A DNA stretch of 64,000 nucleotides from Devosia sp. (GTDB taxonomy: Bacteria > Pseudomonadota > Alphaproteobacteria > Rhizobiales > Devosiaceae), in assembly GCF_014860165.1 (NCBI RefSeq), contig NZ_JACZKG010000043.1:1-64000 (forward strand), written 5' to 3'. Positions 7,135-11,385 of the stretch are shown piece by piece (the first letter of the stretch is position 1; each line of letters opens with the position of its first letter). The position numbers were made by a program, and so were the translations under genes. The notes under the pieces are model-generated. The model made no database searches. It was given only the letters and a program-made list of their open reading frames with translations, and was not told where the DNA came from.

Positions 7135-10100
7135 TTACTCGCCGCGGCTTTCCACCGTATCGACCAGACCCGAGTCCGCCGTGAAGTCCATCACGTCGTC
7201 CATCGGTGCGGCCAGAGCGGCGGCCTGTTCGGCCTCGGTCCGGCGCGCCTCGATCACGGTGTGGTCGCGGTCGGTGGCGATCTTCTTCACGCGGCCGGTT
7301 GCCCCGCCAGTACCCGCCGGGATCAGGCGGCCGACGATGACGTTTTCCTTCAGACCCACCAGCTTGTCGCGCTTGCCCTGAACCGAAGCCTCGGTCAGCA
7401 CGCGGGTGGTTTCCTGGAAGGACGCCGCCGAGATGAAGCTGCGGGTCTGCAGCGACGCCTTGGTGATGCCCAGAAGAACCGGCTCGGCCTTGGCTTCGCG
7501 TGCGCCGCGGGCCCGGACCTTGAGGTTTTCTTCTTCCAGTTCCTGCTTCTCGACCTGTTCGCCCTTCAGCAGCGTGGTGTCGCCGCTGTCGAGGATTTCC
7601 AGCTTCTGAAGCATCTGACGAACGATGACCTCGATGTGCTTGTCGTTGATCTTCACGCCCTGCAGGCGATAGACGTCCTGCACCTCGTCGATCATGTAGT
7701 TGGCAAGCGCCTCGATCCCCATGATCCGCAGGATGTCATGCGGAGCCGGGTTGCCGTCCATGATGTAGTCGCCCTTCTGGACGAAGTCGCCTTCCTGAAC
7801 CGGAATGTGCTTGCCCTTGGGGATCATGTACTCGATCGGGGTCAGCGTCTCATCGACCGGTTCCACGGTGATGCGGCGCTTGTTCTTGTAGTCCTTGCCG
7901 AAGCGGACATAGCCATCGGTTTCGGCGATGATCGCGTGATCCTTCGGACGACGGGCTTCGAACAGTTCCGCCACGCGGGGAAGACCCCCGGTGATGTCCT
8001 TGGTCTTGGCACCTTCGCGCGGGATACGCGCCACCACGTCGCCGGGCCGGATTTCCTGCCCGTCCTCGACCGACAGAATGGCATCCACCGACATCGGATA
8101 GCTGATCGGGTTGCCCGCATCGTTGCGCACGGGGTCGCCGGTTGCCGGGTCCATCACGATGACTTCGGGCTTCAGATCGCCGCCCTTCGGCGCCGAGCGC
8201 CAGTCGGACACGATCTTTTGCGTCATGCCGGTCGCTTCGTCGGTATCCTCGCGGACCGACAGACCCGAGATGAGATCCTTGAACCGTGCCACACCCGCCT
8301 TTTCGGCGATGATCGGCAGGGTATAGGGGTCCCATTCGAACAGCTTGGTGCCGCGCTTGACCTGCGCACCTTCCTTGACATGGACCTTGGCGCCATAGGT
8401 CAGCTTGTGAACCGCCCGCTCGCCGCCGGTTTCATCCACAATCGCGATCGACATGTTGCGGCCGATCACGATCTGCTCGCCCGCCACGTTCTGCAGCAGG
8501 TTCGCGTTGCGGAACTCGATCTTGCCTTCCTGGCTGGCTTCTAGGAACGACTGCTGGCCGCCCTGCGCCACGCCGCCGATGTGGAAGGTCCGCATCGTCA
8601 GCTGCGTGCCGGGTTCGCCGATGGACTGGGCGGCGATGATGCCGACAGCCTCACCGATGTTCACCAGCGTGCCGCGCGCCAGGTCACGGCCGTAGCAGAG
8701 CGCGCAGACGCCCTCTTCGGACTCGCAGGTCAGCGGGCTGCGGATGCGCGCGGTCTGGACGCCGGCCACATGGATGGCGTCGGAACGACGTTCGTCGATC
8801 AGCTCGCCGCGGCGGACGATGACTTCCTCGGTGCCCGGCACCAGGATGTCGTCGGCAGCCACCCGGCCCAGCACGCGCTCGGCCAGGGTCTGCACCACTT
8901 CACCATCATTCACGGCGGTTTCGGCGGTGATCGCCCGTTCGGTGCCGCAGTCATGCACGCGGATGATGCAGTCCTGCGCCACGTCCACCAGACGGCGGGT
9001 CAGGTAGCCCGAGTTCGCCGTCTTCAGCGCGGTATCCGACAGACCCTTCCGGGCGCCGTGGGTCGAGTTGAAGTATTCAAGAACGGTCAGACCTTCCTTG
9101 AAGTTCGAGATGATCGGCGTCTCGATGATCTCGCCGTTCGGCTTGGCCATCAGGCCGCGCATCGCGCCCAGCTGCTTCATCTGCGTGACCGAACCCCGGG
9201 CACCGGAGTGGGCCATCATGTAGACCGAGTTCGGTTCCTTTTCGGCGCCACTGTCGTCGAACTTCGGCGCCGAGATGGTCTTCATCATGGCGTCGGTGAC
9301 CTTGTCGTTGCACTTCGACCAGGCGTCCACGACCTTGTTGTACTTCTCGCCCTGAGTGATCAGGCCGTCGAGGTACTGCTGCTCGAAACCGGCAACCTGT
9401 TCCTTCACCTCGTTGACGATATCCCACTTGTTGTCGGGGATGACCATGTCGTCCTTGCCGAAGGAAATCCCGGCGCGGAAGGCTTCACGGAAGCCAAGGC
9501 CCATGATCTGGTCGCAGAAGATGACCGACTCTTTCTGACCGCAGTAGCGATAGACGGTGTCGATGACGGTCTGCACGTCCTTCTTGCGAAGCGGACGGTT
9601 GACCAGTTCGAACGGCGCCTTGGCGTTCAGCGGCAACAGGTTGCCAAGCCGCAGGCGGCCGGGCGTGGTGTCGAACCGCTTCCAGACGATGTTGCCTTCG
9701 TCGTCGACCTGACGCAGGCGGGCCTTGATGCGGGCGTGCAGATGCACCGCACCGGCGGCCAGCGCGTGTTCCACTTCCTCGATGTCGGCAAAGGCCATGC
9801 CTTCGCCCTGCATGCCCTTGCGTTCCATCGTGACGTAGTAAAGGCCCAGAACCATGTCCTGCGACGGCACGATGATCGGCGCGCCGTTGGCGGGCGACAG
9901 AACGTTGTTGGTCGACATCATCAGCACACGCGCCTCAAGCTGGGCTTCCAGCGAGAGGGGAACGTGAACGGCCATCTGGTCGCCGTCGAAGTCGGCATTG
10001 AAAGCCGAGCAGACGAGCGGGTGCAGACGGATGGCCTTGCCTTCGATCAGGATCGGCTCGAAGGCCTGGATGCCAAGGCGGTGCAGCGTCGGAGCGCGGT

Positions 10101-11385
10101 TCAGCAGAACCGGATGCTCGCGGATCACTTCGTCCAGGATATCCCAGACCTCAGGCTTCTCCTTCTCGACCAGCTTCTTGGCCTGCTTGACGGTCGAAGA
10201 GAAACCCTTCGCCTCAAGACGGCTATAGATGAAGGGCTTGAACAGCTCGAGCGCCATCTTCTTGGGCAGGCCGCACTGGTGCAGCTTGAGGTTTGGACCC
10301 ACGGTGATGACCGAACGACCCGAATAGTCGACGCGCTTGCCGAGCAGGTTCTGGCGGAACCGGCCCTGCTTGCCCTTGAGCATGTCGGACAGCGACTTCA
10401 GCGGCCGCTTGTTGGCACCGGTGATGGTGCGGCCACGGCGGCCGTTGTCGAACAGCGCGTCCACGGCTTCCTGCAGCATGCGCTTTTCGTTGCGGATGAT
10501 GATGTCAGGCGCCCGCAGCTCGATCAGGCGCTTCAACCGGTTGTTGCGGTTGATCACGCGACGATAGAGGTCGTTGAGATCGGACGTGGCAAAGCGGCCA
10601 CCATCCAGCGGCACCAGCGGGCGCAGCTCGGGCGGAATGACCGGAATGACGGTCATGATCATCCATTCGGGCTTGTTGCCCGAGACGATGAACTGCTCGA
10701 CGATCTTCAAGCGCTTGGCGAGCTTCTTGGGCTTAAGTTCCGTGGTGGACTCAGCAATTTCCACGCGCAGGTCGGCCGCGATCTTCTCGAGATCGAGGGC
10801 GAGCAGGATGTCGCGGATAGCTTCCGCGCCGATCTTGGCGGTGAAGCTGTCGGCACCATATTCGTCCTGGGCGTCGAGGAACTGCTCTTCGGTCAGCAGT
10901 TCATGCTGGGTGAAGGGCGTGAGGCCAGCGTCGAGAACGACATAGTTCTCGAAATACAGGATACGCTCGATATCCTTCAGCGTCATATCGAGCAGCAGCG
11001 CGATACGGGACGGCAGGGACTTCAGGAACCAGATGTGGGCGACCGGAGCGGCCAGTTCGATATGGCCCATGCGCTCGCGACGGACGCGGCTCAGGGTGAC
11101 TTCCACACCGCACTTTTCGCAGATGACGCCCTTGAACTTCATGCGCTTGTACTTGCCGCACAGGCACTCATAGTCCTTCACGGGGCCAAAGATGCGTGCG
11201 CAGAACAGACCATCGCGTTCAGGCTTGAACGTGCGATAGTTGATGGTTTCGGGCTTCTTGATCTCGCCGTAAGACCAGCTCAGGATCTTCTCGGGCGAAG
11301 CGATCGAGATCTTCATCTGATCGAAAGTCTGCACCGGAACGGCCGGGTTGAACGGGTCCATGACGTGGGAATGATGATTCATCAA
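7135..11385 (-). CDS. rpoC: RNA polymerase beta' subunit (possible inter-lineage chimera)
   Basis: Catalytic beta' subunit of RNA polymerase, 1416 residues, full length for the family. The N-terminal zinc ribbon uses C74, C76, C89 and C92. The Mg2+ site NADFDGD is at 463-469. The bridge helix/trigger loop area [20 protein letters not shown] and the second zinc site [11 protein letters not shown] are intact. The reading frame is unbroken. The N-terminal quarter ([20 protein letters not shown]) reads as Hyphomicrobiales. From about residue 527 on ([40 protein letters not shown]) it reads as Rhodobacterales. It follows rpoB by 75 bases. Confidence 0.97.

Follow-up and report, generated by a model that had tools for sequence, protein, structure and literature searches.

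Assemblers can join homologous genes of different origin, as has been described in print (PMC8201837, PMC4133164). Chimeric contigs that form between gene homologs are treated in the SAT-Assembler paper (PMC4133164), and the GUNC paper (PMC8201837) describes misassemblies as relatively rare compared with mis-binning. The locus analyzed here resembles the chimeric contigs of the GUNC paper (PMC8201837) in that two source genomes lie on one contig and the lineages assigned to individual genes conflict; its extra copies of rpsL, rpsG and fusA correspond in part to what that paper calls redundant contamination (PMC8201837). In contrast to those contigs (PMC8201837), the join falls inside a single gene and the reading frame is kept open, and a gene-by-gene lineage call would presumably see one odd rpoC here. 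The approach also differs from that of the SAT-Assembler paper (PMC4133164), as we present a single case obtained by comparing the contigs of one genome and not a benchmark.

The window, by which we mean the whole stretch of DNA analyzed (64,000 nucleotides), comprises bases 1-64000 of contig C75 (218,329 bp) in genome G000, an assembly of 4.46 Mb in 87 contigs with a completeness of 99.92 and a reported contamination of 3.04. It was compared with 12 genus-mates (G001-G012), each of which has one rpoC match of host type throughout (12 of 12), with one stop inside the match in G009 and likewise in G004. For the trees 65 rows were made, consisting of the window, the contig C16 of the same genome, the 12 genus-mates, seven order-mates, 42 named alphaproteobacteria and two outgroup rows. 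The named loci were 80 of at least 595; 44 of these 80 were used in trees, and the 36 outside them are mostly other Proteobacteria together with three Pelagibacteraceae. The tree of the N-terminal part of RpoC contains 64 rows, C16 being left out for too little sequence, and that of the C-terminal part 63, with L063 and L069 dropped. The RpoB tree has 58 of 64 rows (L126, L133, L035, L042, L060 and L063 missing or short), the combined S12, S7 and EF-G tree 36 of 65 (29 without the full gene set) and the L1 tree 45 of 64. For the AU tests, subsets of 40 and 39 rows were selected. The Pfam scan covered eight frames; the polymerase, ribosomal and elongation-factor genes are named after the first-pass annotation and a reading of the sequence.

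That annotation had described an intact rpoC whose N-terminal part and right-hand neighbors read as Hyphomicrobiales and whose C-terminal two thirds and left-hand neighbors read as Rhodobacterales, and our analysis bears it out. The frame is open from 7135 to 11385 on the minus strand; its first ~460 residues follow a Hyphomicrobiales genus and the rest follows Rhodobacterales. Block identity, trees and AU tests reveal a sharp lineage switch between two source lineages on one contig. Averaged over 50-residue blocks, the window RpoC is 94-100% identical to the 12 genus-mates up to residue 500 and 36-90% identical over residues 501-1400; over the full length it reaches 74-76% with 3-6 gap positions. 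Residues 1-413 form a 13-row clade with the 12 genus-mates (SH-aLRT 100, 64-row tree), while residues 481-1390 fall into a 12-row Rhodobacterales clade (SH-aLRT 100, 63-row tree) that holds the window, ten Rhodobacterales and an alphaproteobacterium of no named order. An AU test rejects placement of the C-terminal part within the host genus (p 6e-78), and placement of the N-terminal part within Rhodobacterales is rejected less strongly (p 0.03). When 289 genomes of the class were drawn, the three best matches of the C-terminal part besides the window came from one family (81, 79 and 78%), followed by the next at 66%. By tree and sliding identity, the 3' two thirds of the chimeric gene (7135-9967, minus strand) are thus assigned to Rhodobacterales, and by DNA identity and tree the 5' third (9997-11385, minus strand) to the host. 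At the DNA level this 5' third is 96% identical to the genus-mate G008 over 9997-10146, and over 10147-10390 the mean to the genus is 91% with a best value of 96%; the nearest genus-mate of the short N-terminal protein part is G006 (100%). Separate trees of the two halves and of both flanks likewise divide them between two lineages instead of placing them in one family.

The foreign block occupies the first ~10 kb of C75 and breaks off within tuf at base 1. All of its genes lie on the minus strand. The 5' part of tuf, encoding EF-Tu residues 1-93, runs off the first base of the contig (1-264) and is counted as foreign by position; it is 82% identical to the tuf of C16, and window bases 1-500 are 84% identical to G688 and 68% to G008. 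The three following genes are assigned to Rhodobacterales by identity and by the S12, S7 and EF-G tree, in which the window forms a clade with all five Rhodobacterales (SH-aLRT 100, 36 rows), in agreement with the earlier reading of S12 and EF-G. Specifically, fusA (348-2465) is 67-69% identical to the 12 genus-mates versus 81-84% to five named Rhodobacterales, rpsG (2478-2948) 72-75% versus 83-88% to five, and rpsL (2960-3331) 80-81% versus 89-93% to six, with all 12 genus-mates compared in each case. Between rpsL and rpoC follow four foreign genes with the look of surface-sugar or transport functions. They encode a PMT_2 glycosyltransferase (3595-5025, PF13231), a protein with a lipid A biosynthesis N-terminal domain (LAB_N; 5000-5473, PF07578), a family 2 glycosyltransferase (5305-6042, PF00535) and an EamA transporter (6103-7080, PF00892). 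None of the first three has a blastn block reported in the corresponding stretches of G008, G010 and G006 or in C16, and the same holds for the transporter before 7001. In G688 the blastn blocks reach 73% for the LAB_N gene, 79% for the family 2 glycosyltransferase and 71-74% for the transporter. The PMT_2 glycosyltransferase is matched at E 1e-110 or better in 42 of 394 Rhodobacterales-family genomes. G688 is the nearest relative found. The contaminating species itself was not found among these 394 genomes; the best glycosyltransferase match, in G688, is only 66% identical. On the G688 contig (22.5 kb) this glycosyltransferase gene lies at 4284-5684, so that contig starts near the same place as C75.

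To the right of the switch the genes follow the host. The host is a Hyphomicrobiales bacterium, whose genus may be Devosia; in the tree of the N-terminal RpoC part with named loci it takes its position among the families of that order. The rpoB gene (11461-15603), assigned by identity and tree, encodes a protein 93-98% identical to that of the 11 genus-mates with a full gene, the twelfth, G003, being represented by a 75% fragment. It groups with the host (SH-aLRT 100, 58 rows), and a genome search found one copy of rpoB in G000. L1, encoded by rplA (17222-17914) and also assigned by identity and tree, is 86-99% identical to 11 genus-mates versus 68-71% to six named Rhodobacterales and groups with the host as well (SH-aLRT 99, 45 rows), so that the Hyphomicrobiales reading of RpoB and L1 stands. 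For rplK (17919-18347; L11) and nusG (18500-19030) the assignment comes from identities of 92-96% and 94-100%, respectively, to four genus-mates; all four genes are on the minus strand. The contig is host DNA from about 9997 as far as 19.2 kb at the least and, judged by synteny, up to about 25 kb.

Some observations on this side of the contig concern other matters. Between nusG and a tRNA-Trp gene, window 19860-23491 holds an epimerase, a 116-residue frame, an acyltransferase and a 413-residue frame without a Pfam match, and by coordinates G008 is ~3 kb shorter there. When window 24.0-43.9 kb was compared with G008, G010, G006 and G688, the matches listed comprised a near-syntenic one over the first ~1.8 kb and scattered pieces thereafter. 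The stretch 25800-43900 seems to be strain-specific, as beyond the ~1.8 kb syntenic with G008 and G010 the genus-mate matches among those listed are dispersed and for the most part short. A polymerase gene also sits at an odd contig tip in G003, where contig C2 (L126) begins inside rpoB. Over L126 1-311 the RpoB fragment reaches an identity of only 72-75% with the window and with the remaining 11 mates, and the DNA alignment of L126 to G008 begins at base 312; the RpoC of G003 is of normal host type, 95% identical to the joined test gene described below.

Composition was informative in one respect and not in another. The tetranucleotide scan that the first-pass annotation had proposed places the left part nearer to G688 and the right part nearer to G008: z-scores of 1-9967 correlate at 0.80 with the G688 stretch and at 0.59-0.66 with four host stretches, and those of 9997-20000 at 0.87 with G008 and at 0.69 with G688. 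GC3 was measured in seven genes or gene parts of the window, at 82-85%, and in the in-frame rpoC of C16, at 83.6; it does not separate the two parts.

The position of the switch can be narrowed down considerably. It had been predicted for 9800-10550, around the NADFDGDQ motif, and this proved accurate, as diagnostic residues at 9903 and 10027 enclose it. At codon 10029-10027 the window has the arginine of 11 of the 12 genus-mates, a position with a glutamine codon throughout the Rhodobacterales set (17 of 17 rows); at 9903-9895 it reads V-L-S like the Rhodobacterales rows, where the 12 genus-mates have I-L-H. Protein residues thus bracket the switch between 9904 and 10026. In 500-base blocks over 10001-19500, the last one partly covered, a sliding DNA comparison gives 90-97% identity to G008; left of the switch the alignable blocks drop to 66-83%, with none aligning over 3501-7000. 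Within the bracket, exact-word comparison identifies a 29-nt word in the NADFDGDQ region that is common to the window (9968-9996, minus strand) and C16 (69401-69429) and is the likely site of the wrong join, which agrees with the earlier expectation of shared DNA words at the switch. The word is present as a single copy in both the window and the C16 stretch, G008 carries it too, and it is the longest word that window and C16 have in common near the switch, where shorter ones of 24 nt (9904-9927) and 17 nt (10034-10050) also lie. Just below the word C16 is 99% identical to G008 and the window at most 87% to any genus-mate, which places the switch at 9968-10026 if C16 is taken as host. Elsewhere window and C16 share longer words (35 and 32 nt within rpoC, 47 nt within fusA), which makes a length of 29 nt unremarkable. 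In a similar comparison with a 6-kb stretch of G008 containing rpoC, the longest exact word falls over the switch site in four of ten Rhodobacterales loci (41-59 nt, one tied) and elsewhere in the remaining six. The site is hence one likely jump place among others. A length of 29 nt is below the last k of many assemblers.

The evidence that carries the interpretation comes from a different contig. A genome search with RpoC returned a single further match in G000, covering query residues 415-1388 at 65% identity, on C16 (69,578 bp). There rpoC is cut short by the contig end at residue 415, ~150 nt past the shared word, and beside it lie rpsL, rpsG, fusA and tuf along with further frames that we read as ribosomal protein genes. 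Block means of the C16 rpoC to the 12 genus-mates are 85-100%, its protein falls in the host genus (SH-aLRT 100, tree of the C-terminal part), and its S12, S7 and EF-G also group within that genus. Window 9968-11385 and the part of C16 below the word combine into one RpoC of 1396 residues, which aligns without gaps to all 12 genus-mates over 1382-1394 aligned residues at 95.0-98.3% identity. G008 is the nearest genus-mate of RpoC and of S12, S7 and EF-G from C16 and equally of RpoB and L1 from the window (98-99%), and in G008 the corresponding stretches form one piece of one contig. All of this marks C16 as what reads as the true continuation of rpoC in the host, breaking off at the switch. 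G000 holds one full copy of tuf besides the fragment at base 1 of C75. The tuf gene is commonly duplicated in such bacteria, which would explain a contig end inside it.

The very end of C16 needs separate consideration. Its last ~150 nt (69429-69578, corresponding to L011 14430-14579) are 86% identical to the window, and against G008 the same stretch scores 90% for the C16 tip and 96% for the window. A difference of 14% means that window and C16 are not a simple overlap and that one of the two is not host there; the tip of C16 is probably foreign too. Two other 150-nt blocks of the C16 rpoC are only 86-87% identical to G008, so identity alone is weak evidence on the origin of the tip. Matches at E 1e-46 or better were found in 150 of 295 Rhodobacterales-family genomes and in 126 of 297 host-order genomes, the host counted, with a best match besides itself of 94% in both draws. 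G000 is the sole member of the host genus among those 126, the nearest mate G008 lying outside the listed genomes. A named locus, L059, a Hyphomicrobiales MAG, reaches 96.7% identity to the tip. The source of the tip could be Rhodobacterales, as a reciprocal product of the join, or another Hyphomicrobiales bacterium, which fit about equally.

Taken together, we have little doubt that C75 is an assembly chimera of the host and a contaminating Rhodobacterales bacterium, and thus an artefact and not a gene transfer; finding the second half of the host rpoC at the broken end of C16 makes a chimera almost certain. Bases 1 to about 9967 would come from the contaminant and those from about 9997 onward from the host. 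The assembler would have crossed between the genomes at the short exact word in the NADFDGDQ stretch, a highly conserved part of rpoC, and the true continuation in the host would have been orphaned as C16, whose last ~150 nt past the word are perhaps the reciprocal product. That the assembler made the jump and that the C16 tip beyond the word is foreign is what we infer from these comparisons. The frame of rpoC stayed open because both genes align codon for codon at the join. The first-pass annotation had favored a jump of this kind where RpoC is most conserved, and the presence of the rpoC 3' part with rpsL, rpsG and fusA of the host on C16, broken at the same place, supports it.

Its alternative, homologous recombination between distant alphaproteobacteria, gained no support, given that the native genes were not replaced and host DNA adjoins the foreign block on the right only, the left being the contig end in tuf. 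In the form of an allelic replacement, in which the rpoC 3' part and the str operon were swapped for Rhodobacterales DNA, such an exchange could draw on the intact frame and on the order rpoB-rpoC-rpsL-rpsG-fusA, equal in the host genus and Rhodobacterales. However, the native rpoC 3' part, rpsL, rpsG and fusA are all still on C16, the genus-mates each keep their one host-type rpoC, and no host DNA is seen left of the block, which renders a replacement exceedingly improbable. Real recombination is also not needed, and it would result in two copies each of rpsL, rpsG and fusA. A foreign circle integrated by a single crossover at the shared word would place the foreign genes between two reciprocal hybrids of rpoC. 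In its favor, two hybrids at one word are what such an event leaves behind, and the C16 tip past the word is not host-like. Yet the genome search found no second rpoB and, unless the ~150-nt tip is one, no foreign rpoC 5' part. The end of C16 shows no repeat that would stop assembly, and the event would leave no intact host rpoC; we consider it very unlikely.

A mixed host population, with the hybrid as a real minor strain, would be compatible with both alleles being present in the assembly and with the reported contamination of 3.04. It nevertheless demands the same improbable exchange, and the foreign block runs to a contig end within tuf, which is what a separate genome would be expected to show, so that this too has very little probability. 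The most far-reaching reading would be a living Hyphomicrobiales cell with a hybrid β′ subunit, its N-terminal third from the host and the rest from Rhodobacterales, encoded beside an additional str operon of foreign origin. It would have arisen when the two orders recombined in a single crossover at a 29-nt word, giving two reciprocal hybrid rpoC genes. The existence of such a cell is highly doubtful.

With the assembly chimera as the preferred reading, G000 is a slightly contaminated genome with a misassembled contig. The record is unfit as evidence for the transfer of rpoC or of ribosomal genes, and the rpoC, rpsL, rpsG or fusA sequences of this genome could mislead trees that include them. 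The case also shows that the frame of a conserved gene can stay open across a chimeric join inside it, so that the gene passes as one sound gene. The chimera in the polymerase gene has no bearing on biology.
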